Below, piece by piece: positions 8,503-52,844 of a stretch of 52,844 bases of DNA; position 1 is the stretch's first letter; each line of letters starts with the position of its first letter. This stretch comes from a virus. The stretch is taken from positions 1 to 52,844 of IMG/VR virus record IMGVR_UViG_3300010371_000010; one strand, 5' to 3'. The translations under genes and the position numbers were made by a program. Below the pieces are notes generated by a model. It made no database searches. It had not been told where the DNA came from and was given only the letters and a program-made list of their open reading frames with translations.

Positions 8503-9855
8503 CTAGATCTCGGCGTCGGCCGACCAATGGACCATGATGGCGTCACCCGGAGCCGAGCCCGCAGCAGTCGTGACCGTGAGCGCGAAACCCTCAGCCGAGA
8601 CGTTGGTCGCCTGTGTCGCGCCGCAGTCAGCATTGGCCGTGGCATCCCGCGCCAGGCCATTGGCCGCGCTCGGGTTATAGAGGGAGACGCTGGGGGGCTT
8701 GCGCTTGGAACGCCGGAAGCGGGGGCCACCGAGGCTGGTGGATGCGGAAGCCCCGACAACCTGGACGCCAGAATGGGCCCCGGCGCTCCCTGCGTCCTGC
8801 GCCGGCAGGGCACCCTGAACGAAGCTGTGCTCGTAATAGCGCAGACAGCGGCCCAGTTCATCCGAAAGGGGACGGGGGCGGAAGGGCGTTGCGGTCGAGC
8901 CCTCCTCGAGTTTGAAGTTCTCAAGATCGAGCGTCGCGCCCTGAGCCTGCGCGTCCTGCGACCAGACCAGCACGATCAGGTTGTTCATCGCATCGCTCGG
9001 AGAGGCCGAGCGGGAGAATCCGTCAACGGTCCCGGCCGTCAGGGACACCAGCCCGACAGCCAGGACGTTCAGATTATCGGCGGCGAAGAAGTTGCCGGTC
9101 TCGTAGGTGCTGGCGCCCCAGTTGGCGACGACGTCGCGCGTCACGGCGTCGGCCGCGCCGGTCCATTCCAGAATGGCGAAGCGGAGGACGCCCCCGGCGG
9201 ACAAAGCCGCCCGGCCCGAGAGCGTGACATGGCCCGAACGAAGATGGCGGCAATCCGCAGATTCGATGATCTGCGCCCGGCCGAGCCGTTGGGCGGAGGC
9301 TTGCGATTGTGTGAGGCGAGACGCGAAGGCCGCGCCAACTTCCGGGTCGGTGAGTTGCCCAGAACCGACCTGGCCGGATTCGGTGAGCACGTACCAGCGA
9401 TCGAAGTCGTAATCCCCGTCCCCGACCGTGGAGCGGCCCCGCTGGTTAATCGCAAACCCGCCATTGCCGAGGAGATTATCGGCCAGAGGCGCAGGCGTGT
9501 CAGGAGAGACGAGGGCTGTTCCGTCCGCCCGCTGGTAAGCAACCACCGACCAAGCCCCATCATCATCGGAAACGACGATGCAGGTATCTTCGGCGGAAGC
9601 GGTTATGCTTCCCCCGCCGGGGAGCGTCAGGTCGGCCGAGGCGATCAGCGTCGGGGAGTCCAGGAACTCCACGATCTTGAGCTTGTTCGGCTGGTTGCCG
9701 AGCGACGTGATCCGGGCCGTGCCCGCGATCTGCACATAGTTGGAGTTGGCCGACCCGATGTCGCAGGTGGTCGCCGCTTGGAGAACGACCACGGGCGCCA
9801 AGCCCACGTCATTGGTGTTGGACCCGCCCGCGCGGACAGAGACGGTGACTGCCAT
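8503..9855 (-). CDS. Tail fibre with carbohydrate-binding-like domain
   Basis: A 450-residue protein. The first about 115 residues are a beta-rich domain resembling phage fibre N-terminal attachment modules. From NLLGNGGFAINQRG (about residue 127) onward it shows the arrangement of carbohydrate-binding tail-fibre modules, with a DFDRWY motif and a LENFKLEEGSTATPF motif that commonly ends such jelly-roll domains. A C-terminal domain follows a basic RRSKRKPPSVSLYNP segment. It lies between gp4-like and gp10-like genes. I infer that it attaches to the tail and binds host surface sugars; the exact receptor cannot be read from sequence. Confidence 0.75.
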   Translation of the reverse strand: MAVTVSVRAGGSNTNDVGLAPVVVLQAATTCDIGSANSNYVQIAGTARITSLGNQPNKLKIVEFLDSPTLIASADLTLPGGGSITASAEDTCIVVSDDDGAWSVVAYQRADGTALVSPDTPAPLADNLLGNGGFAINQRGRSTVGDGDYDFDRWYVLTESGQVGSGQLTDPEVGAAFASRLTQSQASAQRLGRAQIIESADCRHLRSGHVTLSGRAALSAGGVLRFAILEWTGAADAVTRDVVANWGASTYETGNFFAADNLNVLAVGLVSLTAGTVDGFSRSASPSDAMNNLIVLVWSQDAQAQGATLDLENFKLEEGSTATPFRPRPLSDELGRCLRYYEHSFVQGALPAQDAGSAGAHSGVQVVGASASTSLGGPRFRRSKRKPPSVSLYNPSAANGLARDATANADCGATQATNVSAEGFALTVTTAAGSAPGDAIMVHWSADAEI

Positions 9856-10833: not shown

Positions 10834-11283
10834 TTAGTCCGCCAGGCCGTCGACGGTGTAGTGGCAGACCAACCGCACCGTGCCCGCCGCCTTGGTGGCG
10901 CCGGCCGTGTGGACGGTGCCAATGATCGGCGTGTCGGCCGTGCACTGATAGTCCCAACCGGTCGACGCCATGTTGGAGTCGGAGGTTCCGGCCTGGCCCA
11001 CCACGGACTGCGAGAAGAACCGGGTCGCCGAACCAGCGTCGCCCACATCGAAGGTGATGGTGGGGGAAGCGTTGGTGTCGATGTCGGTGCTCTGCAGTTG
11101 CATGTGGCGTACGGTGGCGCCCTTGGGCAGGGTGAAGAACGCGAGGGTGTCGTTCGCGGCCAGAGACGTGGTGACGGCCACTTGGGCGGTCAGCAGCTTG
11201 GCGTTGGCGGCGAAGCCGTGCGAGGGCACGGTCGCCTTACCGTTGGCCAGCTTGGTGGCCAGGGTTGAAGAAAGCGCAGCCAT
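10834..11283 (-). CDS. Putative head decoration or minor structural protein
   Basis: A 149-residue protein with a GGAAAC ribosome site upstream of its ATG. It is beta-rich, with a hydrophobic core (TLPKGATVRHMQL, TITFDVGDAGSATRFF, GTVRLVCHYTVDG) similar in style to phage head-decoration and head-fibre proteins that follow the major capsid gene. In this genome the two are separated by an oppositely oriented HNH nuclease gene. Assignment is by composition and position; no diagnostic motif is visible. Confidence 0.6.
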   Translation of the reverse strand: MAALSSTLATKLANGKATVPSHGFAANAKLLTAQVAVTTSLAANDTLAFFTLPKGATVRHMQLQSTDIDTNASPTITFDVGDAGSATRFFSQSVVGQAGTSDSNMASTGWDYQCTADTPIIGTVHTAGATKAAGTVRLVCHYTVDGLAD

Positions 11284-11352
11284 ATCGAAGGTTTCCTTAG
11301 AGAAGGATTGGGGGTGTGGTAAACTTCGCGGCTCACTGACCTAAGGCGGACA

Positions 11353-11865
11353 ATGATGGAGCGATGGGCAGAACTCAACGGTTGGCCGGGATACTGGATT
11401 TCCAACGGCGGCACTTTGAGGGGGCCGCGCGGCTTTCCACTCGCGACTGTCGGGGACAAGAACGGCTATAGAACCGTCTATATCGGCAACAAGAAGCGTG
11501 GCGCGTTGATCAAATTACACCGCGCCGTAGTGGCCGCTTTCATCGGACCCGTTCCCCCCGGAATGCACGTCAACCATAAGAACGGCGTGAAGGACGACAA
11601 CCGGGTCGAAAACCTGGAGATCGTCACTCCCCGGGAGAACGTGCTTCACGGCTTCCGGGTGTTGGGCCGAAAGGGCTGCAACACTAAGCCAAACCGAGGC
11701 TCTGCTCATCACAACGCTAGGCTTACCGAGGATGATGTTCGCGAGCTAAAACGGCTGAGGGGCCAAGGATTCACCCAAGTCAGACTGGCTGCGAGGTTCG
11801 GGATTAGCCAAACCAACGTAAGCAGAATTCTGCGAGGAGAAGCTTGGCCCCACGTAACCGCTTAG
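11353..11865 (+). CDS. HNH homing endonuclease (NUMOD4-HNH-HTH), inserted in the capsid region
   Basis: A 170-residue plus-strand gene in an otherwise leftward late operon; its stop lies 1 base before the end of the major capsid gene. The N-terminus has the NUMOD4 motif (GYWISNGGTLR). The HNH motif is at LHRAVVAAFIGPVPPG, HVNHKNGVKDDN and NLEIVTPREN. The C-terminus has a helix-turn-helix with an ARFGISQTNVSRILRG signature that would bind DNA. The same architecture occurs at 36831-37400, so the two are probably paralogues. Free-standing HNH genes of this sort spread by cutting phages that lack them. The opposite orientation and tight fit between two structural genes support insertion. Confidence 0.88.
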   Translation: MMERWAELNGWPGYWISNGGTLRGPRGFPLATVGDKNGYRTVYIGNKKRGALIKLHRAVVAAFIGPVPPGMHVNHKNGVKDDNRVENLEIVTPRENVLHGFRVLGRKGCNTKPNRGSAHHNARLTEDDVRELKRLRGQGFTQVRLAARFGISQTNVSRILRGEAWPHVTA

Positions 11866-19682: not shown

Positions 19683-20363
19683 CTACTCCGCAGCCAGCAG
19701 TGAGCCCTGGATGGGCTTGGGCGCGGGCTCTTCGAATAGGCGGGGCTGCTTGTAGGCCTCTTCGATCCGGCGGCAGGCGGTGTCGAAGTAGTCGGCCTCT
19801 CGTTCGATGCCGATAAACTGGCGATCTGTCAGGGCGCACGCCACGCCGGTCGTTCCGCTACCCATGAAGGGGTCGAGTATGCGGGACGCGCCCGGCAGGA
19901 AGCCAAGCGACCACATCATAACTTCGACCGGCTTCTGTGTCGGGTGAAGGCCGCCCTTGCCCTTCGGGCAGCACGTGAACTCCCGCAGTGCGCGGTCGAG
20001 GCTGGTCCAAGCAAGCTCGCCGTCGGCGAAATCGCCGCCCATTAGCTTTTGCCAATACAACCAGCCCTTGGATGGCGGAAGCAGGTCGGCGAAGTAGTTG
20101 CCGCCCCAAATGATCTGGTGATCACTGACGGCCAGCATCCACTCGAAAACGCGACGGTCTGGGCGTTCGCGATCCCAGCTCTTCTTCGCCTGAACCTTGA
20201 TCCTTTGCCCTAGTCGTCCGCGAAATTTCCCGCCATCTTCACCAATCCCATACGGCGGATCGGTCACAACGGCGTCTACCCTTCCGACCGTCTCCGCCAC
20301 GGCGCGGCAGTCGGCGAGGATTAGCCTGCAGTCGCCGATGATCTCAGTACGGAACCTGCTCAT
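19683..20363 (-). CDS. DNA methyltransferase, beta-class DPPY type (N6-adenine), CcrM-like core
   Basis: A 226-residue AdoMet-dependent methyltransferase. The catalytic motif IV TDPPYGIG is at about residues 35-42. The AdoMet-binding motif I DPFMGSGTTG is near residue 175, followed by FIGIEREADYF. This order (IV before I) is the beta class, shared with CcrM, and a HPTQKP motif precedes motif I as in that group. It lacks the extra C-terminal DNA-recognition domain of CcrM, so its target site is unknown. It acts on DNA in the cytoplasm, for protection from host restriction or for changing methylation-dependent gene control. It overlaps the preceding nuclease-like gene by 20 bases. Confidence 0.9.
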   Translation of the reverse strand: MSRFRTEIIGDCRLILADCRAVAETVGRVDAVVTDPPYGIGEDGGKFRGRLGQRIKVQAKKSWDRERPDRRVFEWMLAVSDHQIIWGGNYFADLLPPSKGWLYWQKLMGGDFADGELAWTSLDRALREFTCCPKGKGGLHPTQKPVEVMMWSLGFLPGASRILDPFMGSGTTGVACALTDRQFIGIEREADYFDTACRRIEEAYKQPRLFEEPAPKPIQGSLLAAE

Positions 20364-21381: not shown

Positions 21382-21990
21382 TTAGTTGGCCCTTCGTGAC
21401 ACGCCGAGGCCAGCGGCGAGGTCTTTCATCGCCGCCGCCATTTCCGCCCGTCGTTCTGGTGAAATCGCCGCTGGTGGCGTCGCGCCCTCAAGGCAAGCGA
21501 CGCCGACCGCGGCGGGAATAAGAACTCTCTGCTCTGTAGGAGCAGAGTTCTTATTCCTTCTGGTTCTGGTTCTGGTTATGTCGGCAATTGCTTCGTTTTT
21601 CGATAGCAAAATTGAAGCATTTGCTTCGTCGGATTTTCCCTTCTTTTTCCGACGGTTGACACCACTTTTGACCCCTCCGGCCTTTCCGGCTTGGCGTCTT
21701 TTTGCTACAGTTTCTTCGTACTTTTTGACCTCGTTTCGCAAACGCTTGTGCGAAAGGTAAGCGCCCCTCTTGATGAACAGCGCAACCACGTCCGGGCCGA
21801 TCTCCGACCAACGCCGTTCCGAAAGGCCGACGATGCGTGCGAGCTTGGTGGCGTCGTTGGGGAGCGTGCCGCCAGCTCGCCACATGGCGCGCACAAGCCG
21901 TCCGTATGCGCCGTCCTGCTCACAGGTCAGCGCCTGCGTGTCAGCCGTCCACTCGGCGACGTACAGCTTCATGTACGGGGGGGCGCTCAC
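21382..21990 (-). CDS. DUF1376 replication-associated protein
   Basis: A 202-residue protein; the GTG start at 21990 overlaps the stop of the DnaA-like gene as GTGA. Residues 5-70 are the DUF1376 domain (MKLYVAEWTADTQALTCEQDG, AYGRLVRAMWRAGGTLPNDATKLARIVGLSERRW), a winged-helix-like domain found at the N-terminus of phage and prophage replication-initiation proteins. A Lys-rich linker follows (NRRKKKGK), then a low-complexity tail. Its position right after a DnaA-domain-IV-like protein supports a role at the phage origin, possibly recruiting the host helicase. Biochemical function of the family is not settled. Confidence 0.75.
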   Translation of the reverse strand: MSAPPYMKLYVAEWTADTQALTCEQDGAYGRLVRAMWRAGGTLPNDATKLARIVGLSERRWSEIGPDVVALFIKRGAYLSHKRLRNEVKKYEETVAKRRQAGKAGGVKSGVNRRKKKGKSDEANASILLSKNEAIADITRTRTRRNKNSAPTEQRVLIPAAVGVACLEGATPPAAISPERRAEMAAAMKDLAAGLGVSRRAN

Positions 21991-22325
21991 TTCAGGCCGT
22001 CCTTGGTCTTCGGCAAGCCGAACTCGCGCCACGCCTTCAAATCGGCCTCAGCAGCGTTGTGGGTCCGCACGCCATGCATGACGGTCGTATGATCGCGGCC
22101 GAAGTAGCGGCCGATGGCGGTAAGGGACTGAGACGTTTCAGCCCGCATCCTGGCCATCGCCTCCTGCCGCGGATGCGCGACCTTGAAGCCCCTCGCAGGG
22201 CCTCTAAGCTCCTCGACCGTCAGGCCGTGCTTGGCGGCGACTTCGGCGGCGATTTGGGCCATCGTCGGCCCACGCCGGATGGCAAGTTCGCCGCGCCAGA
22301 GGGAGACGGCATACTCCACCGTCAT
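21987..22325 (-). CDS. DnaA domain IV-like DNA-binding protein
   Basis: A 112-residue protein; the ATG at 22325 overlaps the upstream stop as ATGA. Residues about 21-90 match the C-terminal domain IV of DnaA: TMAQIAAEVAAKHGLTVEEL, then a basic connector with RQEAMARMRAETSQSL, and the signature IGRYFGRDHTTVMHGVRTH at residues 71-89. In DnaA this helix-turn-helix reads the DnaA box. The phage protein lacks the AAA+ ATPase domain and domain I, so it should bind DnaA-box-like sites without unwinding them. It could mark the phage origin or compete with host DnaA; both ideas are inference. It lies between the 75-residue gene and DUF1376, all coupled by 4-bp overlaps. Confidence 0.88.
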   Translation of the reverse strand: MTVEYAVSLWRGELAIRRGPTMAQIAAEVAAKHGLTVEELRGPARGFKVAHPRQEAMARMRAETSQSLTAIGRYFGRDHTTVMHGVRTHNAAEADLKAWREFGLPKTKDGLK

Positions 22326-22549
22326 CGCGCCGCCCCCAACGCCGTGAGACAAACCCCGCCCGTAGCCTTCAGCCCATGCCTGGCGACGTTCAGTTGAACA
22401 GCCCAATGCAGGATGGAGATGGTCGAGCCGTCCCGATCCTCTGGGCTTCGGCTGAAGTCTCGCATGGCCCGGCAAAGGGCTTGAAACGCATCGCCTTCGG
22501 GATCGAGGGCCTTTGGCTCTACATCACAGGGGAGGTCTGAGGCGGTCAC
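22322..22549 (-). CDS. Small protein within the regulator operon
   Basis: A 75-residue protein starting at GTG with a GTGA overlap on the CtrA-like stop and ending with an ATGA overlap on the DnaA-like start. It is acidic at the N-terminus and continues with a helix (AFQALCRAMRDFSR) and a more hydrophobic second half (TISILHWAVQLNVARHGL). No family is recognised. The two overlaps argue strongly that it is translated in this four-gene relay. Confidence 0.65.
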   Translation of the reverse strand: MTASDLPCDVEPKALDPEGDAFQALCRAMRDFSRSPEDRDGSTISILHWAVQLNVARHGLKATGGVCLTALGAAR

Positions 22550-22923
22550 TGGGCCAGCCCCGAAAGGAACTCGGGAGAGACACGGTAGCCGCGACCCCAA
22601 ACGTTCTTGATGCTTTCGAAGCCAATCGCCTTGCGAATATGGCAGACGAGGACTCCGATCATCTCGAAGTCGGTGATCTTGGACCCGCGCTCTTCCAGCA
22701 GCATGACCAGGGCGGCCTTTTCGACCGTGCGCCCGTGGGCGGCCACAAGGGCGCTCAAGACAATGGCCTGCGTGTTCGTGAGGCCGAATTTGTCCCTCAG
22801 AGCGATGAGCTGGTTCTGATCTACTTCCATCGCCAACTGGCGCTTGAGGTAGGTGTTTTCTTCTTCCAGCTCGGCGATGCGCTGAACGTCGTCGGGAGCG
22901 CGGGATTGGTGGGCGGCGCTCAT
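22546..22923 (-). CDS. CtrA/OmpR-type winged-helix DNA-binding protein without receiver domain
   Basis: A 125-residue protein. Residues 12-40 are a coiled coil (IAELEEENTYLKRQL). Residues 45-117 form an OmpR/PhoB-type winged helix: FGLTNTQAIVLSALVAAHGR, a recognition-helix region with FEMIGVLVCHIRKAIG, and the wing motif VWGRGYRVS at 108-116. CtrA of Caulobacter has the closely similar elements VFICKLRKKL and ETVWGRGYVL. The phosphorylatable receiver domain is absent, so binding would not depend on the host phosphorelay. The coiled coil may replace it for dimerisation. I infer that it binds promoters, possibly CtrA-like sites. Confidence 0.82.
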   Translation of the reverse strand: MSAAHQSRAPDDVQRIAELEEENTYLKRQLAMEVDQNQLIALRDKFGLTNTQAIVLSALVAAHGRTVEKAALVMLLEERGSKITDFEMIGVLVCHIRKAIGFESIKNVWGRGYRVSPEFLSGLAQ

Positions 22924-23426
22924 GCGGCGTACCTCCGAACCGACCGGGCAAGATCGCTTGCGGACGAAGTCGGGACAAAAGCCCTCTTGGCATGCGCCTG
23001 GCAGTAGGGGCCGGGTTCGATCTTGCGGGCGCCGCAGAAGTGGAAATCAGGGTCGTTTGTGTCGCCGATGGGCCAGCGGCAGTGGTGGGCCTTGAGATCC
23101 ACCATGACGACTGGAGTCGGAGACGTGGGCTCGGGGGCGAAGGTGGTCGGCGGCCGGACGATGCCCGGCGGCGGCGGTTCGATAGCGAAAGTGACCTTGC
23201 GGGTTCGCCGAGCGCTGTTCGGGTTGCCCTTATCTCGCGGCGCCTTGGGCCGCGGATGAGAGCCTTTCGCTCCTGCAACGCCTAGGCGGGTCAATTTGCC
23301 GATGACGCCGCTGCGGGTCGCGCCGTTTTTGAGTTGGTCCGCGATCTGCCCGGCACTCTTGCCCTCGATCCAAAGGCGCTTGGCCGTTTGGGTCCGCTCA
23401 TCGCTCCATATGTCGTCTCTGATCAT
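22920..23426 (-). CDS. gcrA-like: GcrA-family cell-cycle regulator
   Basis: A 168-residue protein; I chose the ATG at 23426 because it makes the same 4-bp overlap as the other genes of the block. The N-terminus IWSDERTQTAKRLWIEGKSAGQIADQL plus VIGKLTRLGV (residues 41-50) is the GcrA helix-turn-helix DNA-binding domain. The C-terminus HHCRWPIGDTNDPDFHFCG...YCQAH (C116, C131, C142, H145) is the conserved GcrA C-terminal segment that in Caulobacter contacts the sigma-70 domain of RNA polymerase. Host GcrA activates promoters carrying methylated GANTC sites. The middle is a Pro-rich linker. A phage copy could redirect sigma-70 polymerase to phage or host promoters. Confidence 0.93.
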   Translation of the reverse strand: MIRDDIWSDERTQTAKRLWIEGKSAGQIADQLKNGATRSGVIGKLTRLGVAGAKGSHPRPKAPRDKGNPNSARRTRKVTFAIEPPPPGIVRPPTTFAPEPTSPTPVVMVDLKAHHCRWPIGDTNDPDFHFCGARKIEPGPYCQAHAKRAFVPTSSASDLARSVRRYAA

Positions 23427-23638
23427 GCCTGCGCCCCCCAAAGGCGCTTCCGGTTCTGGCGGAGTTGAAGGATCGTTAGTTGACGAAGGCGGGCGTCCAT
23501 TTCGGAGATCGGCCGGTATAGGGCGCGGGCCTCGGCGATCTTCTTGATGAGGGCTTCACGCTCCTCGGCGATCTCGGCCGGCGTCGGCGGGAAAAGGAGA
23601 TCGAGGAGGCGGAGGAAGAAGGCTCTCAAACCGCTCAT
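23423..23638 (-). CDS. Small helical protein upstream of gcrA-like gene
   Basis: A 71-residue protein with an ATGA overlap on both sides. The first 17 residues are hydrophobic (LRAFFLRLLDLLFPP), possibly a membrane-associated helix. The rest is a charged helix with LTILQLRQNRKRLW near the end. No family is recognised. Confidence 0.65.
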   Translation of the reverse strand: MSGLRAFFLRLLDLLFPPTPAEIAEEREALIKKIAEARALYRPISEMDARLRQLTILQLRQNRKRLWGAQA

Positions 23639-24003
23639 GACAGCTTGATCTCCTTGCCGGTCAGGGCCAGGAACAGCTTTGCCTTCAGCGCCCACTCGGG
23701 CGTCATGTGGCCCTTGAAGTCCTCGTAGACGGGCTCGCCGGCGCGGTTGCGGTAGACGAAGTCGAGGACCATCGTCGTCACCAACCGGCCATTGACCTTC
23801 AGCGGATACGGCTGCTGGCGACGCAGTTCGGATATCTCGCCCGCGCGCTCCAGGAGCTTCAGTTCGCCCCAGCGCCGAGCCTCGCCAGCACTGGCGAATG
23901 ACACGCCGTCGACCTTCGTCCGGCGATTGCCGTACTTGTTCCGCTTCGTCTCGCGCTGCAGCAAAGCTCGGAAGTCAGATGCGGTGATCGACGCCCCCGA
24001 CAT
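23635..24003 (-). CDS. DUF1064 nuclease-like protein
   Basis: A 122-residue protein. I selected the ATG at 24003 because a GGAGAG ribosome site lies 9 bases before it; a GTG at 24027 is an alternative. The sequence NKYGNRRTKVDGVSFASAGEARRWGEL, then LRRQQPYPLKVNG and a DFVYRN..EPVYEDFKGH segment is the DUF1064 signature. This phage family has a PD-(D/E)XK-like core (here D...E-D-x-K), suggested to be a Holliday-junction-type nuclease. It is coupled to the next gene by ATGA. Confidence 0.8.
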   Translation of the reverse strand: MSGASITASDFRALLQRETKRNKYGNRRTKVDGVSFASAGEARRWGELKLLERAGEISELRRQQPYPLKVNGRLVTTMVLDFVYRNRAGEPVYEDFKGHMTPEWALKAKLFLALTGKEIKLS

Positions 24004-24097
24004 TGCGCGCTCTCTCCGGCTACTCACTGAGCAGATGCCGTCTGCCCTCGGTCTCGATTGTGGATGCGCGATGTTGTCTCGCGCTGTCCGGTAGGAT

Positions 24098-24163
24098 TCA
24101 GGGCGTCCCGGTGCTTCGGACTTCGTCCTTCGCTCCCGATTGCATTCGTTGAACGCGGCTCAT
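24098..24163 (-). CDS. Possible 21-residue peptide after the methyltransferase gene
   Basis: An ATG-started frame overlapping the methyltransferase stop as ATGA, encoding a short basic peptide. It may be a remnant or a coupling peptide; evidence is limited to the overlap. Confidence 0.3.
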   Translation of the reverse strand: MSRVQRMQSGAKDEVRSTGTP

Positions 24164-25236
24164 GCGGCCACCTCGGCGAACATGCCCGCGTCCTTCTCGA
24201 TCCGCCGGCGAGCCATCGCCGCGTATTCGGGATTGAGCTCGATCAGCGTCGCGTCGCGGCCCAGGCGGTCGGCTACGAGGCCAGTCGTGCCAGCGCCCCC
24301 AAAGGGGTCCAGCACGGCGCCGCCCTTGGGGCAGCCAGCCAGGATGCACGGCTCGATCAGTTCAGGCGGATAGGTGGCGAAATGGGCTTCGCTGAACGGC
24401 TGTGTGGCGACAGTCCAAACGGAACGGCGGTTGCGCGTGCCTAGGTCGGTCGGGTCCGCCGCGCGCTCGCGTTCGGAATAGGCCACGAGTCCGACTTTCG
24501 TCCGATGCTCTGCGGCCCCGGCCTCATATGCGGAAGCGCCCTTGTGGCTCTTGTTGCCGGGCGTGCGGCGCTTGCCCAGTCGGGCGTTGTCGGTGTCTCC
24601 GCCAACGTAGCAGCCGCCCCGGAAACCGTTCGCGTCCTCGTGCTGTGCGCGGGCTTCCGCAATGGCTTCCGCATCGAAGTGGTAGCGTGCCGACTTGGAA
24701 AGCAGGAACAGATACTCGTGCGCCTTGGTGCAGCGGTCGCGCACGCTCTCGGGCATGGGATTGGGCTTGGCCCAGATGATGTCCTGGCGCAGAAACCAAC
24801 CATCAGCCTGCAGCGCAAAGGCCACCCGCCAGGGAATGCCGATCAAGTCCTTGGGTTTAAGCCCCGGCGTGTTCTTCAGGCTGCCGGTCTGCGTGCGCTT
24901 CGGATGCGCTTCGATCTGCCGAGCGGAGAGCATGGAGCCGCCCTCCAGGTTGCCGGGCGTATCACTTCCGCGGCTTTGGGCACCCCATGATCCGGCGTAG
25001 CTGTCTCCCAAGTTCAGCCAGAGCGTGCCGTCAAACCGCAGCACGCGACGAACCTCGCGGAACACGCTAACCATTTGAGCGACAAAGGCTTCCGGTGTAT
25101 CCTCGAGCCCAATCTGGCCGTTCGTTCCATAGTCGCGGAGGCCGAAATAGGGAGGGCTCGTCACACAGGTGTTGAAGGCCCCATCGGGCAGTTCACGCAG
25201 GACGTTCCGGCAGTCGCCTTCGATGACTCGGATCAC
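24160..25236 (-). CDS. DNA methyltransferase, TSPPY type (N4-cytosine or N6-adenine)
   Basis: A 358-residue beta-class methyltransferase; the GTG start overlaps the upstream stop as GTGA. Motif IV is VTSPPYFGLRDYG at about residues 26-38. Motif I near the C-terminus is DPFGGAGTTGLVADRLGRDATLIELNP. The region between includes WLNLGDSYAG and DIIWAKPNPMPESVRDR, common to phage and type III-like enzymes. TSPPY favours N4-cytosine methylation but does not exclude N6-adenine. The target sequence is unknown. No matching restriction endonuclease is adjacent, so it is probably an orphan enzyme protecting phage DNA or altering methylation-dependent control. Confidence 0.9.
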   Translation of the reverse strand: MIRVIEGDCRNVLRELPDGAFNTCVTSPPYFGLRDYGTNGQIGLEDTPEAFVAQMVSVFREVRRVLRFDGTLWLNLGDSYAGSWGAQSRGSDTPGNLEGGSMLSARQIEAHPKRTQTGSLKNTPGLKPKDLIGIPWRVAFALQADGWFLRQDIIWAKPNPMPESVRDRCTKAHEYLFLLSKSARYHFDAEAIAEARAQHEDANGFRGGCYVGGDTDNARLGKRRTPGNKSHKGASAYEAGAAEHRTKVGLVAYSERERAADPTDLGTRNRRSVWTVATQPFSEAHFATYPPELIEPCILAGCPKGGAVLDPFGGAGTTGLVADRLGRDATLIELNPEYAAMARRRIEKDAGMFAEVAA

Positions 25237-27635: not shown

Positions 27636-28174
27636 GCTGCGTCCGCGCTGACTTCGGCGGAAGCCGGAAGCCTCAGATACGAGGGAACCTCCCCGCGATA
27701 GACGCGCTTCGCCATTTCGAAGCGGCCATAGAAGCTACGCGGCAAGCGGTAGTCGGCATGGACGGTCCCGAGGGACGCGACCTTGTAGCCGAGCGCGGAC
27801 GCAACTCCCTCGCGCGATCCGAAGAACGCGATGGCTTCTCTCACGAGGCCGGGCGCCACGCCGCGAGACGAGTCCGCCATCCACTCCCGTTCTTCCGGAA
27901 GCCAAGCGAGATCGCCACGGTCAGTCGCTTCGGCAATCACGCGCCAAATCCGCACGTCCGGCGCGAACCATTCACTGGCGTTCCAAAGACGCTCGCGGAA
28001 CAGCCACTTGAGCGCAGACTCCCGGACCATGCTGCCGGGGATCGACGTGAGCATTTCGATGCCAGACGGCGACCAGCCATCCAGGCCCTGGATACGCGCT
28101 ACCGGATTGGCGCTCGTACCGACCTTGATCGGGCCACCACCTTTGGGCTGCGCAAAGTAGACGACAGGGCTCAT
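27632..28174 (-). CDS. T5orf172-like GIY-YIG family protein
   Basis: A 180-residue protein coupled to the Cro-like gene by ATGA. The N-terminal 75 residues (VVYFAQPKGGGPIKVGTS, NPVARIQGLDGW, then ESALKWLFRERL with WFAP) match the T5orf172/Mug113 branch of the GIY-YIG superfamily: YF in place of the first tyrosine motif, IKVG for YIG, and a later Arg/Glu. The C-terminal 90 residues hold a further helical region with a helix-turn-helix-like stretch (VREAIAFFGSREGVASALGY). A T5orf172 domain beside a repressor gene is common in phages. It could be a nuclease or a DNA-binding regulator. Confidence 0.7.
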   Translation of the reverse strand: MSPVVYFAQPKGGGPIKVGTSANPVARIQGLDGWSPSGIEMLTSIPGSMVRESALKWLFRERLWNASEWFAPDVRIWRVIAEATDRGDLAWLPEEREWMADSSRGVAPGLVREAIAFFGSREGVASALGYKVASLGTVHADYRLPRSFYGRFEMAKRVYRGEVPSYLRLPASAEVSADAA

Positions 28175-28422
28175 GCCGCTGCTCTGCCCGGCTCTCCACG
28201 CTTCTCGCGGGGGCTGGCGGCGGCGCCCATCACAAAGGCGGCGGCTGGAATCTTGGTGACGACCTCAAGCGCGCGGGCCGTCTTCGGCCGAGGCGTGCTG
28301 TCGCCATACTTGATCCGGTTGACCTGGGAACGCGAAATGGCCTCGCCAGTCTCAGCGACCACGCGGGCCGCGAGCTGGGCATCCGTCAGGCCGGTCAGAT
28401 CCATCCATTCCTTGAGCGTCAT
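28171..28422 (-). CDS. Cro-like helix-turn-helix repressor
   Basis: An 83-residue protein with an XRE-type helix-turn-helix at about residues 2-45 (LKEWMDLTGLTDAQLAARV, then ISRSQVNRIKYG). It is divergent from the CI-like gene with operators in between. Its predicted promoter -10 ends only about 8 bases before the ATG, so the mRNA would be nearly leaderless. The arrangement with a shared operator region points to the Cro partner of the lysogeny switch. Which of the two proteins maintains lysogeny cannot be proved from sequence; the larger rightward one is the better CI candidate. Confidence 0.75.
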   Translation of the reverse strand: MTLKEWMDLTGLTDAQLAARVVAETGEAISRSQVNRIKYGDSTPRPKTARALEVVTKIPAAAFVMGAAASPREKRGEPGRAAA

Positions 28423-28430
28423 GGTCAGGC

Positions 28431-28459
28431 AATGTGCACTGAGTGCGCAAAGCCGTCAA
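28431..28459 (-). promoter_or_regulatory. Leftward promoter of the switch with operator O1
   Basis: Read leftward: TTGACG (28459-28454), 17-base spacer, CACATT (28436-28431). The 17-bp operator TGTGCA-N5-TGCGCA lies at 28433-28449, across the spacer and the -10. The rightward promoter at 28939-28967 has the same geometry and the same CACATT hexamer, which supports both. A repressor bound here would exclude RNA polymerase. Confidence 0.7.
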
Positions 28460-28501
28460 GCCCGCGCGCGCTTTCGGTGATCTGGCAGTGCTACGTCTTG
28501 T

Positions 28502-28518
28502 CGCGCACCCTGTGCACA
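28502..28518. promoter_or_regulatory. Operator O2
   Basis: A 17-bp site, CGCGCA-N5-TGCACA on the plus strand, matching the consensus TGTGCA-N5-TGCGCA with one change. It ends on the first base of the CI-like ATG, so binding would affect repressor transcription or early elongation (autoregulation). Confidence 0.65.
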
Positions 28519-28838
28519 TGGCTCGGCGGGCGCCCCAAACTCGGCATTTCATTCGCGCTTGGCGGAAGGCGCGGGGGCTCACCCTTGAGCAGCTGTCCGA
28601 GCGCATCGGCATGAGCCACCAGAACCTAGGCAAGGTCGAGCGCGGCAAGGTTCCCTACACCCAGACGCTTCTTGAGCTTCTCGCAGAGGAGTTGCGCTGC
28701 GATCCAAAGGACCTGATTATGCGCGACCCGACCGACCCGGACGGCCTCTGGTCTATCTATGACCAGCTTGGGCCCGTTCAGCGGCGCCAGGTGGTCGAGA
28801 TCGCCAAGACGCTCAAGCGCACCGGCACCGACGACTAA
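28518..28838 (+). CDS. CI-like helix-turn-helix repressor
   Basis: A 106-residue protein from the ATG at 28518; an in-frame GTG at 28443 lies inside operator O1 and is less likely. The XRE helix-turn-helix is at about residues 20-45 (LTLEQLSERIGMSHQNLGKVERG). The C-terminal 50 residues are a short helical domain (DGLWSIYDQLGPVQRRQVVEIAKTL), probably for dimerisation. There is no LexA/S24 self-cleaving peptidase domain, so induction would not be by simple RecA-driven autocleavage. This short two-part build is common in alphaproteobacterial prophages. Confidence 0.78.
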   Translation: MARRAPQTRHFIRAWRKARGLTLEQLSERIGMSHQNLGKVERGKVPYTQTLLELLAEELRCDPKDLIMRDPTDPDGLWSIYDQLGPVQRRQVVEIAKTLKRTGTDD

Positions 28839-30081: not shown

Positions 30082-30434
30082 GTTCATCTGGTGACGACAT
30101 TGCGGCTCGCCCAAGCGCTCGCCCCGAAACGCCGCTCTCCGCTGGACAGGTGCGCGAGAAGATCCTCGCCGGCGACGTTCAGCCGGGCGATCTGCTCGAA
30201 ACCGACGATGGCGCCCCGGTTCGAGTGGCGGCCATCCGCGAAGCCAAGTGGATCAAGGATGCCAATCACAAGCCGCTGCTGGAGTTCTTCGAGCGCCGCA
30301 ACGATCGCAGCGGCTTCCTGATCGGCCGCTCGGACGAAGTCTTCCGCGTGCGCCCCAAGGGCCAAGGCCGCACCCCCGACCAGTCCGGCGATCCTCCACA
30401 GGTGGATGAAGACGGTCCTGGGAGGGAAGGATGA
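30078..30434 (+). CDS. Early protein of unknown function
   Basis: A 118-residue protein from the ATG at 30078 (ATGA overlap). After a disordered N-terminus a compact domain with VREKILAGDVQPGDLLETDDG and AKWIKDANHKPLLEFFERR is visible; the C-terminus is again low complexity. It is coupled to the winged-helix gene downstream. No family is recognised. Confidence 0.6.
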   Translation: MSSSGDDIAARPSARPETPLSAGQVREKILAGDVQPGDLLETDDGAPVRVAAIREAKWIKDANHKPLLEFFERRNDRSGFLIGRSDEVFRVRPKGQGRTPDQSGDPPQVDEDGPGREG

Positions 30435-30733
30435 GCCAGGAAGTTGTCCGCCGAATGGCCTTTCGCGAATGGTTCGGCCTGACCCCCGCGGGCGCCGAGA
30501 TCCTGGCCGTGCTCTACGGCGCCAACGGCTCGGCCTTGGAGCCCGAAGCCCTTGCCAAGGCGGCGGGCGTCTCCCCTAGGGCCATCGGCTATCACCTGTT
30601 CGCCGTGCGCCAAGCCCTGGAACAGGACGGTCTGGAGCATGTGCCTAGCCAGGGCTATCGGCTGTCCGAACCGGCCTTGGACGAATGCCGCGCCGCCCTC
30701 CGCACCATCGCAGAGGAGCTGCGAGCCCAATGA
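30431..30733 (+). CDS. Second OmpR-type winged-helix DNA-binding protein
   Basis: A 100-residue protein consisting of one DNA-binding domain: FGLTPAGAEILAVLYGANG, SPRAIGYHLFAVRQALEQ and the wing motif SQGYRLSEP. The layout parallels the CtrA-like protein at 22546-22923 (FGLT..., then HIRKAI..., then GRGYRVS), so this is a second phage regulator with no receiver domain. It belongs to the early rightward operon and is therefore expressed before or alongside the leftward regulators. Targets are unknown. Confidence 0.72.
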   Translation: MSQEVVRRMAFREWFGLTPAGAEILAVLYGANGSALEPEALAKAAGVSPRAIGYHLFAVRQALEQDGLEHVPSQGYRLSEPALDECRAALRTIAEELRAQ

Positions 30734-35868: not shown

Positions 35869-36560
35869 TGCTCCATTTCCACGGGACTCCAATCACGCCC
35901 ATGTCGGCCCTCTACAGCCTCGCCGGCAAGTGCTTCTGCGTCTCGCACGTCCGGCCCGATCAGGTGGCCCGCGTGCATGAGATCGGGCAGTCCGTGATGC
36001 TCGATAACGGGGCCTTCTCTCGCTTCACCAAGGGCAAGTCTACCGACTGGCCGGGCTACTACGCTTGGTGCGACCGCTGGCTCGATTACCCCACCACATG
36101 CGCGGTGATCCCGGACGTGATCGACGCCGGATCGCAGGAACAAGACGCCCTAATCCGCGAATGGCCGCACGGCCCTAAGGGTGCGCCCGTCTGGCATATG
36201 GACGAACCCGTTGACCGGCTTGTCCGGCTTTCCGAAGCGTGGCCGCGCGTGTGCATTGGATCGACGGGCGAGTTCTGGCGCGTGCTGTCCGATCCGTGGC
36301 GGGCCCGCATGGATCAGGCCTGGAACGCGCTTTCCGCCGTCCACGCCAGGACCCCGAACGTCCACATGCTGCGCGGGATGCAGCTCAGCGGCCTGGAGTG
36401 GCCCTTCGCCTCCGTCGATAGCACCGACGTAGCCCAGAACCACAACCGCCCCCAGAACACGCCTCGCTCGCTCGCCGACCGCTGGGACGCCTCTCAGGCC
36501 GCTCCGCGCTGGCAAGCCCGCGCACAGCAGCCGGACCTTTACGACGGAGCCGCCGCGTGA
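35865..36560 (+). CDS. dpdA-like: DpdA-like DNA 7-deazaguanine transglycosylase
   Basis: A 231-residue protein related to tRNA-guanine transglycosylases. D47 in SVMLDNGAFSRF lies in the position of the TGT Asp of the DSGGF motif, and D185 in FASVDSTDVAQNHN sits where the TGT nucleophile Asp occurs. VIPDVIDAG, GAPVWHMDEP and RVCIGSTGE fit the beta-alpha barrel between them. DpdA enzymes of phages exchange guanine in DNA for preQ0 or related bases and thereby block restriction. The neighbour is a QueD-like gene, but no FolE, QueE or QueC is seen, so the base would come from the host pathway. Family is well supported; the final base is unknown. Confidence 0.72.
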   Translation: MMLHFHGTPITPMSALYSLAGKCFCVSHVRPDQVARVHEIGQSVMLDNGAFSRFTKGKSTDWPGYYAWCDRWLDYPTTCAVIPDVIDAGSQEQDALIREWPHGPKGAPVWHMDEPVDRLVRLSEAWPRVCIGSTGEFWRVLSDPWRARMDQAWNALSAVHARTPNVHMLRGMQLSGLEWPFASVDSTDVAQNHNRPQNTPRSLADRWDASQAAPRWQARAQQPDLYDGAAA

Positions 36561-37457: not shown

Positions 37458-37670
37458 GTGAGCGCGAAGGGATTCCGCAAAGGCGTCGTCGCCCAGCTCA
37501 TCCGCGAGGCCATCGCCGGCGGACTGAAGCCCGGCGAGTTCGCTGTGGATATCAAGCCTGAGGGCGGCTATCGCATCTTGCCAGCGGTCCCGCTCGCTGC
37601 GGACGCTGACCCGCTCGATTCTGAGCTAGATGCATGGCGGGCATCCCATGGCGGTACGAATGGACATTAG
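37458..37670 (+). CDS. Small protein upstream of integrase (excisionase candidate)
   Basis: A 70-residue protein with a GTG start and a GAGGGGG ribosome site, overlapping the integrase start. It is helical at the N-terminus (GFRKGVVAQLIREAIAGGLK) and has a short beta segment. A small basic protein directly before a tyrosine integrase suggests a recombination directionality factor, but the usual winged-helix Xis motif is not clear. A 22-codon frame at 37393-37461 lies just upstream with GTGA overlap. Confidence 0.5.
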   Translation: MSAKGFRKGVVAQLIREAIAGGLKPGEFAVDIKPEGGYRILPAVPLAADADPLDSELDAWRASHGGTNGH

Positions 37671-38709
37671 CTCCGTCTACCGTGTCCGGGCCAAGGGCCG
37701 AACCTACTACTACGCATGGAAGGGCAAGGGCGCGCCGCGGCTCTACGCCGAGCCCGGATCGCCCGAGTTCATCCGCGAGCTTGCCGAGGCGCTGGCATCC
37801 AAGAACATGCCGGACCCGAGGCGCTTCGCCTATCTCTGCGTCCTTTGGCGCCAGTCCGATCAGTGGGCCAAGCCTCCCGAGGAAGGCGGCCTAGCCTGGT
37901 CAACCCGGAAGGACTGGAGCCGCTGGCTTGACGAGATCCAGCGCCATTTCGGCGGCCTCAGCATCGCACAGTTCGAGCGCCCAGCCATCGTCAAGGAGAT
38001 CAACGCCTGGCGCAGCCAATGGGCCGACAAGCCCCGCACGGCCGACATGGCGAAGCAAGTGCTCTCCGCCCTGCTCTCCTTCGCCAAGCGCCGAGGCGAA
38101 CTGGCCCAGAACCTTTGCGAGGGCCTTGACAACTTCTATCGCTCCGACCGCTCGGAGATCATCTGGACCGACGCCGATCTCGAAAGAGCCGAACGCGTCG
38201 CTTCACCGGAGGTCATGCAGGCGTTGCGCCTGGCCTGCCTCACCGGCTTACGCCAGCGCGATCTCCTGCGGCTGAGCTGGTCACACATCTCCGCCCTGGC
38301 GATCGACCTGCCGACCGGCAAGAGTGGGGGCAAGCGCACGGCCACTGTCCCGATGTACGAGGAGCTGGCCGACTTCCTCGCCACCATCCCCAAGCGCGCC
38401 ACGACAGTCCTGACCAACACCCGCGGGCGGCCCTGGCAGTCCGGCTTTGGCGCGACCTGGACGAAGACGATGGAGGCCATGGGCGAGACGGTCCTGCACT
38501 TCCACGACGCCAGAGGCACGGCGGCGACCCGGTTCTATCTCGCCGGCTTCGCCCCGCGTGAGGTCGCCGAAATCCTCGGCTGGAAGGAAGACAAGGTCGA
38601 GCGGATCATCAACCGCTACGTCCGCCGAGATGCGCTGCTCAGAGACCGGATCAGGCGCCTGGACGAAGCCCGCGCCGAACGGTCCAAGAACCCGGCCGGA
38701 AAAACTTGA
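37648..38709 (+). CDS. int: Tyrosine-family integrase
   Basis: A 353-residue site-specific recombinase (an ATG at 37630 is an alternative start). The N-terminus has an arm-type or AP2-like basic beta segment (VRAKGRTYYYAWKGKG), followed by the core-binding domain (about residues 80-165). Catalytic residues by motif: Arg in CLTGLRQRDLLRLSW (R202), Lys in the TGKSGGKRT hairpin, H286-x-x-R289 in LHFHDARGTAATR, W312 in ILGWKEDK, and the tyrosine nucleophile in NRYV (Y324). It recombines attP with a host tRNA-Arg gene; attP lies just downstream (38768-38815). Confidence 0.92.
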   Translation: MAVRMDISSVYRVRAKGRTYYYAWKGKGAPRLYAEPGSPEFIRELAEALASKNMPDPRRFAYLCVLWRQSDQWAKPPEEGGLAWSTRKDWSRWLDEIQRHFGGLSIAQFERPAIVKEINAWRSQWADKPRTADMAKQVLSALLSFAKRRGELAQNLCEGLDNFYRSDRSEIIWTDADLERAERVASPEVMQALRLACLTGLRQRDLLRLSWSHISALAIDLPTGKSGGKRTATVPMYEELADFLATIPKRATTVLTNTRGRPWQSGFGATWTKTMEAMGETVLHFHDARGTAATRFYLAGFAPREVAEILGWKEDKVERIINRYVRRDALLRDRIRRLDEARAERSKNPAGKT

Positions 38710-50880: not shown

Positions 50881-52844
50881 CTATTGGGCGAGAGCATTCC
50901 TCTGCGGCGCCGGTTGAGCCGGAGTCGCAACTCCCCCGATCCCGACCAGCGCAGCGTAAAGGCCCCGCATCCGGGCGTTCAGGATCGGCTCCGACACCTT
51001 GCCGTTCTTGACCGGGACCTTCGCCAGTAACTCACGGGCGACGTTCGGATCCAGCATGGCGCGGGTGATGACGTCTTCCACACGCTGAACGCCGGCGGAA
51101 CGCAGGCTCTGGAGATAGTGGGCGGTCGCCCCTCCCAACGCCTCTCCCACCAAGCTCGGAGCACCATGCGTATGGCCGATGCTGCCGCCGATCATGGCGC
51201 CCAAGATGTCGATGAAGCCCTGGACGCCCTTGCCGCCATGCTTGGCGATCAGGTTTTGATCCTGAGCCGTGTTGGAGTTGCCCGGAAGCCGGATCGCGTT
51301 CTCCGACCGCTTGGCCCGCTGGATATCCCGCGCAATGGCCTCGATCCGGTCCACTTCCTCTCGGGCGAAGACCTGCAATAGTGCGGCGCGGCTCTGGCGG
51401 CTGAAGTTCTGGAAGGCGTCCGCCTTGATCGCGCCCTGGCCGGAGGTTCCCGCTTCGGTGTTGCCGATCAGCTTGCCCGTGATGTGGTCGGCGATGGCCT
51501 GGCGAAGGCCAGCTCTGGCATCCGCATTGCCCTGCGTCACCCGGGCCAGGGCCTTCATATCCTGGACCGAGGTCTTGCCGTTGAGGATTTGGCCCACGAT
51601 GCGGGTCACGTCCTCCGGCTCCGAGGCGTTCAGCACGCGGCCGATGGCGCCTTGCTGATAAGCCTTAAGGGCCGCGGTTCGGCTCGCTAGAGCTTCGTTG
51701 ACAGCCTCTGCCGCCTTGGCTGCATCGGCGAAGCGGGCCTGCGTTTCGGCCGGAAGGGCGCGCAAGGCGTCCTGATGGCGAGAGACCCAAGAGGCATACT
51801 TGCCCGGATCGAGCGTGCCGTCATCCTTCAAGGCCGCGCGCTTCAGGGAATTGGCGGCGAAGTCCTCGATCACCGGCATAGCCTCGGGACCGGCGGCCTT
51901 CAGAAGCGCCTGCATGTGCTGATAAGCGGCGGGGCCAGGATGGAAGAACTTGCCGGGCACTTCCCCGTTCGGAAGCGTGAACTGCCCCTTATATCCATTG
52001 GTCCGCGTGATATCGGTCACGGGACGGATGCCGAAGGTCTGATCGTGCTGCGCGTAGGCCGTGTCGGCGGCTAGCTGGCGCTGTCTGGCGGCGTCATCGA
52101 AGCTTGGCGCGTTCGGTAGGCCCGGATTTCCCGGAGCAGGTCCAGGTTGCCCTCTCGCCTGTTCTCCTGTTCCAGCCACGCCAACAGCGCGGGGCGCTCC
52201 GAGTCCGGGACCGCCTCCTGTTCCAAGATCACCGCTAACTGCTCGCCCGGCTGCACGGTCCTGATAGAACTTCTGCACCTGAGCCGCGAGCTTTACGCCA
52301 GCGGCTTGTTCGGGTGCCATTGTACCCGCTTTCACCGCCGCGTCATCCACCGCGACTTTGTTCGCTATCGTGTTGGCGAGATTGTCCTGCAATGCGCTCC
52401 GCAGTTTTGAAAGCCGCGCGTATCCAGCGCTATCGCCCTCACGCAGGGCTTGACCGGCCGCATCATTTACGCGGACCTTCAGCGCCATTAGGTCGCGAGC
52501 GGGAGCGATGTCGGGCATCTGCGCCGCCGCTTGGTAGATTCCGGCCTCCTCGCCCGTGATCGGTGCAGCCGTCGCGGGCTGGGACGCGGGAATGTCCTTT
52601 GCAGCGGCCTTCGTCTGCACCACGTTCGCGGTCAGGTCGCCGTTTGGATCGACAGCATCGTAAAGCGCCTTGTAAGCCGCCTTCGACGTGTCCTGAGCCG
52701 CCGTGACGGCCCCTCGGATGTCGGCCCCGTAGACTTCGGGCGTTCCCGCGCCCCCTATGGTCGCGGCCCTGGCCTGAGCGTCGCGAGCGGCGGCTTGGGC
52801 GGCTTGATCCGTCTGCGCGTCGAGCGCGTCGAGGCCATCCCGCA
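50881..52844 (-). CDS. DNA-ejection protein with transglycosylase domain (C-terminal part)
   Basis: This is the C-terminal part of the gene whose N-terminal part lies at 1-1693; the frame is open through the window end and matches across the 123-base repeat. The region is helical, with Ala/Gln/Lys-rich segments, a DNA- or membrane-interacting-like basic part (ARDIQRAKRSENAIRLPG), and a Gly-rich hydrophobic stretch (GFIDILGAMIGGSIGHTHG) that could insert into a membrane. The C-terminus is Pro/Ala/Gln-rich. It is the last gene of the late operon and ends a few bases from the convergent lipoprotein gene. Confidence 0.82.
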   Translation of the reverse strand, partial: RDGLDALDAQTDQAAQAAARDAQARAATIGGAGTPEVYGADIRGAVTAAQDTSKAAYKALYDAVDPNGDLTANVVQTKAAAKDIPASQPATAAPITGEEAGIYQAAAQMPDIAPARDLMALKVRVNDAAGQALREGDSAGYARLSKLRSALQDNLANTIANKVAVDDAAVKAGTMAPEQAAGVKLAAQVQKFYQDRAAGRAVSGDLGTGGGPGLGAPRAVGVAGTGEQARGQPGPAPGNPGLPNAPSFDDAARQRQLAADTAYAQHDQTFGIRPVTDITRTNGYKGQFTLPNGEVPGKFFHPGPAAYQHMQALLKAAGPEAMPVIEDFAANSLKRAALKDDGTLDPGKYASWVSRHQDALRALPAETQARFADAAKAAEAVNEALASRTAALKAYQQGAIGRVLNASEPEDVTRIVGQILNGKTSVQDMKALARVTQGNADARAGLRQAIADHITGKLIGNTEAGTSGQGAIKADAFQNFSRQSRAALLQVFAREEVDRIEAIARDIQRAKRSENAIRLPGNSNTAQDQNLIAKHGGKGVQGFIDILGAMIGGSIGHTHGAPSLVGEALGGATAHYLQSLRSAGVQRVEDVITRAMLDPNVARELLAKVPVKNGKVSEPILNARMRGLYAALVGIGGVATPAQPAPQRNALAQ
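52722..52844. repeat. Terminal direct repeat (right copy)
   Basis: Identical to bases 1-123. See the left copy. Confidence 0.95.

Follow-up and report, generated by a model that had tools for sequence, protein, structure and literature searches.

This study concerned a viral contig of 52,844 nt (IMG/VR record IMGVR_UViG_3300010371_000010, referred to below, over its whole length, as the window), in which an overlapping chain of seven minus-strand genes carries a complete homologue of GcrA together with an OmpR-type winged helix, a stand-alone DnaA domain IV (DnaA-IV) and a DUF1376 protein. We consider it rather probable that the chain serves as the early lytic operon in a temperate phage of Caulobacteraceae-like bacteria, and that it joins a replication module to a sigma70-cofactor module. 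The replication module would comprise DnaA-IV, the DUF1376 protein, with a likely phage origin inside its gene, and the junction resolvase of the DUF1064 family; the transcription module would comprise the complete GcrA and the receiver-less winged helix. The recurrence of this grouping in other phages suggests that the virus ties its own transcription and DNA replication to the methylation-based cell-cycle controls of its host. The genes of the chain, in their order of transcription, and the features that flank it or lie within it are as follows:

24160-25236, minus strand: N6/N4 DNA methyltransferase A, upstream of the chain and in the same direction (PF01555, 1.7e-42)
24095-24099: GANTC (CcrM-type) site 92 bp upstream of the chain, within the one gap (156 bp) that precedes it
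23635-24003, minus strand: DUF1064/phage Holliday-junction resolvase family protein, first in the chain (PF06356, 3.4e-11; phrog_190, 2.1e-26)
23423-23638, minus strand: 71-aa protein, an ORF with a 4-bp overlap at either side
22920-23426, minus strand: full-length GcrA homologue with DNA-binding domain, linker and sigma-interacting domain (PF07750, E = 1.7e-34)
22546-22923, minus strand: OmpR/PhoB-type winged helix of 125 aa with a predicted N-terminal helical stretch (PF00486, 4.5e-7)
22322-22549, minus strand: 75-aa protein, with 4-bp overlaps, probably helical
21987-22325, minus strand: stand-alone DnaA domain IV (Bac_DnaA_C) of 112 aa (PF08299, 1.3e-18)
21382-21990, minus strand: DUF1376/phage primosomal, replisome-organiser-like protein (PF07120, 5.8e-16; phrog_3992 primosomal, 2.5e-22)
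21515-21629, no strand assigned: candidate phage replication origin, within the DUF1376 gene (DNA features)
19683-20363, minus strand: DNA methyltransferase B, downstream of the chain and in the same direction (PF01555, 1.5e-18)

The initial annotation had described five genes, from GcrA to DUF1376, joined by 4-bp ATGA/GTGA overlaps, and the ORF coordinates agree with this and place all five on the minus strand; the overlaps continue further upstream through the 71-aa gene and then DUF1064, giving a chain of seven (DUF1064, 71 aa, GcrA, winged helix, 75 aa, DnaA-IV, DUF1376) with 4-bp overlaps throughout. The matches of GcrA, the winged helix, DnaA-IV and DUF1376 all exceed the Pfam cut-offs. 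Neither of the two small proteins had a family match in Pfam and PHROG searches, and a low-confidence helical single-sequence model of the 75-aa protein (pLDDT 59.5) was too poor for a fold search. Methyltransferase B lies downstream of the chain, as do a NusG-like gene and the terminase, and no sigma70-like promoter was recognised in the operon leader, the 156-bp gap ahead of the chain.

The first 123 bases of the window are found again at 52722-52844, a terminal repeat that makes a complete genome the best reading of the 52.8-kb contig. Family searches showed that it also encodes RecT, NinB, TerL, a portal and a major head protein, and its TerL shares 71% identity with the TerL of Pseudanabaena phage Pam1. 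Its regulatory and integration genes include:

37630-38709: integrase
28443-28838, plus strand: CI-like repressor, divergent (HTH_3, 1.4e-12; phage repressor families)
28171-28422, minus strand: cro-like HTH protein, which opens the early minus-strand run (HTH_3, 1.8e-5)
30431-30733, plus strand: second, more diverged winged helix of 100 aa, on the early right side (PF00486, E = 0.02; winged-helix profile)

Since it combines an integrase, a CI-like repressor with a divergent cro-like gene, and a head and packaging gene set with a Pam1-like TerL, the phage is taken to be temperate and podovirus-like. The operon is on the cro side of the repressor, within the early run opened by the cro-like gene. 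A collinear prophage is present in a Caulobacteraceae genome (G346, contig L263), where TerL is 41% identical, several early genes follow in the same order, and the second winged helix has a 34% identical relative (11250-11855). Judged from this prophage and from the Caulobacterales proteins closest to the GcrA of the window, the host most likely belongs to the Caulobacteraceae. GcrA matches in genome contigs were counted as largely the hosts' own gcrA rather than prophage copies, and served for host assignment only. Elsewhere in the window, a queuine tRNA-ribosyltransferase-like protein (35901-36560, plus strand; phrog_887, 1.5e-41) is possibly a DNA-modification or tRNA gene.

GcrA is a cofactor of sigma70 at m6A promoters, and of its two domains one recognises methylated promoter DNA and the other sigma region 2 (PMC7403470). 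The three regulators encoded in the operon had initially been described as trimmed, that is, as DNA-binding parts lacking their regulated domains; this holds for DnaA, which is represented by domain IV, and for the winged helix, which has no receiver, but GcrA is complete. Over residues 7-166 it aligns with positions 3-172 of the 173-aa GcrA of C. crescentus (7ye1, E = 3.5e-28), and both solved domains are matched, the N-terminal DNA-binding domain over residues 4-50 (5yiu, E = 1.9e-10) and the C-terminal sigma-interacting domain over residues 94-166 (5yix, E = 6.8e-14). The C.WP..C..YC..H motif of the sigma-interacting domain, with its C-W-C-YC-H core, is intact. Most phage GcrAs are full length, and this motif is kept in 34 of 52 GcrA-like phage ORFs. 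The nearest relatives of the window protein belong to the Caulobacterales (42-47% identity). In a weakly supported tree, in which long branches meet, phage GcrAs lie on long branches apart from the host group or at its base, and for this reason a recent capture of the window copy from a host is unlikely. Pattern searches of viral contigs found no close relatives of the GcrA or of the winged helix, and two mixed alignments contained no segment of sufficient conservation for such a search.

Two other arrangements of GcrA-like sequences were seen in the survey. Caulobacteraceae genomes (L255, L259, L260, L261 and L262) carry a diverged GcrA-like gene directly upstream of a related TerL, the usual position of the small terminase subunit. 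In L087 (8513-9991), a 492-aa protein encoded right behind a full-length GcrA matches the sigma-interacting half of GcrA in its C-terminal part (PF07750, 2.3e-8), while its N-terminal part is not the DNA-binding part of GcrA.

The winged helix scores 30.3 bits against PF00486 (curated cut-off 26.2), its sole Pfam match, and a profile of its relatives matches solved OmpR-family DNA-binding domains (2.5e-8). It had been labelled a CtrA-like winged helix without a receiver; the receiver is indeed absent from the 125 aa, but the CtrA label finds no support in the sequence, since the CtrA profile gave the lowest of three scores (18.6 bits, against 25.7 and 25.5 for other OmpR-type regulators). Profile searches thus placed GcrA and DnaA-IV in the families proposed for them, and the winged helix in the OmpR/PhoB type rather than with CtrA. 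In a single-sequence search, chromosomal QseB-like regulators ranked above CtrA, and across 390 Caulobacteraceae genomes there was one weak match (E = 3.7e-6). A single-sequence model (pLDDT 53) was too poor for a fold search. The phage genome holds no CtrA-box pair (TTAA-N7-TTAA), and its single one-mismatch site compares with 1.16 expected. The sole winged helix of the survey that is clearly closest to CtrA is part of a 266-aa protein of Paracoccus phage R3 (L005:4746-5546).

That the operon encodes DnaA reduced to domain IV was borne out by the Bac_DnaA_C match, by a match to the DnaA DNA-binding-domain structure 3pvp (5.2e-11), and by the lack of any Pfam match to an AAA+ ATPase domain in the 112 aa. 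The GRDHTTVMHG signature and the PRQ motif, through which DnaA proteins contact DnaA boxes, are both conserved. Phage proteins of this kind are already known (PHROG 27829). No DnaA-box cluster was found genome-wide (no TTWTNCACA, and two one-mismatch boxes against 2.45 expected), and DnaA-IV may therefore use diverged phage sites or act on host boxes. In the collinear prophage, the gene for DnaA-IV (48% identity) overlaps the next one, of 212 aa, which was read as a replication gene, and the 15.5 kb read showed neither a GcrA nor the first winged helix. Because the prophage keeps DnaA-IV and the replication gene without a GcrA in this stretch, DnaA-IV is best filed with the replication genes and less well seen as one of three parts of a cell-cycle cassette. 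DUF1376 is close by in 11 of 67 contigs with DnaA-IV, and adjacent in four. The DMCA gene behind gcrA (P0004) looked by eye like DnaA-IV and was discarded, as it had no Pfam match and scored just 8 bits with a tuned profile.

These results bear on the proposal that the three proteins form a cassette for overriding the host cell cycle. They would act on host GcrA, CtrA and DnaA sites and so seize or freeze the cycle, with DnaA-IV blocking the boxes of host oriC, GcrA forcing S-phase transcription, and the winged helix competing with CtrA-type regulators. The completeness of GcrA fits this, as does a DnaA-IV that retains its DnaA-box signature in a phage without a box cluster, the sites of which may then be on the host chromosome; there are also earlier proposals, for the GcrA of phiCbK (PMC3556154) and for host CtrA controlling genes of phages (PMC9437464). 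On the other hand, the winged helix shows no specific likeness to CtrA, the phage genome has no CtrA boxes, and DnaA-IV keeps company with replication genes and stays in the collinear prophage without the GcrA pair. What survives of the cassette first proposed is a real GcrA, a DnaA-IV and an OmpR-family winged helix in one early operon; the CtrA homologue does not, and we regard the override as doubtful.

As a replication gene, DUF1376 has the attributes of a replisome organiser, with a primosomal family match and with repeats and AT-rich DNA inside the gene. A perfect 14-bp inverted repeat at 21515-21557 forms the longest hairpin of the genome and is its sole inverted repeat of at least 13 bp (folding z = -7.1). 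It is accompanied by two 13-bp direct repeats 33 bp apart (21584-21596 and 21617-21629) and by short hexamer repeats of the CCAGAA type, and the lowest-GC 120-bp windows of the genome also fall inside the gene. Repeat clusters occur in other DUF1376 genes as well (e.g., L015, L099 and L069). From these DNA features, it is likely that the replication origin of the phage sits inside the DUF1376 gene.

GANTC is the site of the methylase CcrM, and the CcrM/GcrA epigenetic clock times the alphaproteobacterial cell cycle. The window has 92 GANTC sites against 251 expected from dinucleotides (O/E 0.37), a strong depletion which might point to host methylation but counts as weak support for it, since it largely follows codon usage; in three non-alphaproteobacterial phages O/E was 0.54-0.72. 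After a synonymous-codon shuffle the figures were 63 against 85.5 ± 7.2 (O/E 0.74), and of six palindromes tested GANTC alone was clearly below this shuffle. The depletion thus agrees weakly with a GANTC-methylating host. Codon structure likewise confounds the excess of sites between genes (23 of 92; p = 4.6e-5 relative to the composition split), and the one GANTC in the 156-bp gap is about what chance would give. Methyltransferase A was considered as a CcrM orthologue and rejected, since only its C-terminal motif regions match CcrM (6pbd); neither A nor B had a full-length CcrM match, and other methylases scored better. Pam1 (L235), though listed as a cyanophage, is strongly depleted in GANTC (7 sites where 59 were expected) in the manner of alphaproteobacterial phages, which raises a question of host or contaminant.

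A search for the same gene order in other phages yielded related groupings in three. In Synechococcus phage JY42 (L002), gcrA is followed by an overlapping winged helix (P0002), a 55-aa protein, a DnaB-type helicase (assigned by sequence), an HNH gene, DUF1376 and DnaA-IV, with all four parts inside 5 kb. An IMG/VR contig (L050; 3300042556_001594) has the reversed order, with DUF1376 (7.8e-15) and DnaA-IV (1e-18) and then a 222-aa protein (8835-9503) that combines an OmpR-type winged helix (6.1e-9) and the DNA-binding domain of GcrA (3.7e-7) in a single chain. There appears to be a further HTH at the C-terminus of this fusion. In Caulobacter phage GB2A, a winged helix overlaps a gene for a GcrA DNA-binding domain (PF07750, 5.7e-8). 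The three were reached from different query proteins (JY42 from GcrA, L050 from DnaA-IV and GB2A from the winged helix), and selection bias is therefore limited. In addition, gcrA runs straight into DnaA-IV in L101/L102, L106, L108, L035 and L012 (the GcrA match of the last being weak, E = 0.016), the two genes overlapping in several contigs, and is near or adjoining DUF1376 in about ten contigs. Across 49 phage records, picked for having at least one of the parts, an OmpR-type winged helix was found in 7 and DnaA-IV in 12 (E <= 0.01). The grouping of GcrA, winged helix and DnaA-IV recurs in unrelated phages, and the association is partial, most GcrA phages having neither DnaA-IV nor an OmpR-type winged helix.

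Such partial association might be expected of an ordinary mosaic, in which small DNA-binding genes common in alphaproteobacterial phages lie side by side in the early region and do not cooperate. By itself gcrA is common in these phages (32 records; 37 contigs) and its neighbours vary, with DnaA-IV or an OmpR-type winged helix in only a minority of GcrA contigs. Against this stands the arrival at the same combination by three independent routes, with 4-bp overlaps and one fusion protein, and the mosaic is accordingly the less likely account, one that we think improbable.

The preferred reading, of an early operon with joined replication and transcription modules, could operate as follows. After induction, transcription from the cro side would produce both modules together. 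Phage GcrA would use its intact C-terminal domain to bind the sigma70 of the host, bringing polymerase to GANTC-methylated (m6A) promoters; this may sustain the activity of host replication genes that depend on GcrA and of phage promoters, should any be methylated. The winged helix may work beside GcrA as a constitutive DNA-binding regulator, as suggested by the gene overlap and by the fusion in L050. DnaA-IV might mark DNA sites or compete for them, so routing replication to the phage origin, and together with DUF1376 would start phage replication. It is a more speculative step, and an unlikely one in our estimation, to see here a recurrent viral module that brings together a sigma70 cofactor of the GcrA type, or the DNA-binding domain of one, with a winged helix of the OmpR type (in one phage as a fusion) and a free DnaA-IV, and that would read the DNA-methylation cell-cycle clock of the host and hand replication from host oriC to the phage's own origin. 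Phage GcrA has been noted since 2012 and its use only speculated on, and its pairing with the winged helix now gives a concrete, testable set of partners which, with DnaA-IV and the origin-bearing gene, could show whether the virus exploits the CcrM/GcrA clock.

Compared with the GcrA of C. crescentus, the window protein is of the same length class and has the same DNA-binding domain, linker and sigma-interacting domain with a conserved C/H core, but it is phage-borne, diverged, and placed within a replication operon. Phages of the phiCbK type also encode GcrA, for which an altered host replication state was proposed in 2012 (Gill et al. 2012, PMC3556154), and the protein is likewise reported from Atu_ph08 (PMC6630229), Pam5 (PMC9382816), S. 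meliloti prophages (PMC12429752) and a coral-associated phage (PMC11309003). These are similarly phage-encoded proteins, with a suggested role in host transcription or lysogeny, but in the passages found gcrA is reported alone, without a joint module of GcrA, winged helix, DnaA-IV and DUF1376. The joint module and the fusion of winged helix and GcrA appear to be undescribed in the open-licence literature searched, whereas phage GcrA is already known. JY42 (PP438432) shares a gcrA overlapping a winged helix of the coiled-coil type, with DUF1376 and DnaA-IV downstream, but differs in having the DnaB-type helicase and HNH genes in between, and only GcrA, a DnaA C-terminal protein and hypotheticals were annotated. 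L050 shares DUF1376, DnaA-IV, the winged helix and the GcrA DNA-binding domain, and differs in their reversed order, in the fusion of the last two, and in having no match to the sigma-interacting domain. A further parallel is with the early right operon of the lambda/D3 type (cro, cII, O, DnaB/P), where a replication gene likewise lies behind cro and an origin-like element lies inside the initiator gene (lambda O); in the window, it is GcrA and the winged helix that occupy the position of the regulator, and DnaA-IV is added.
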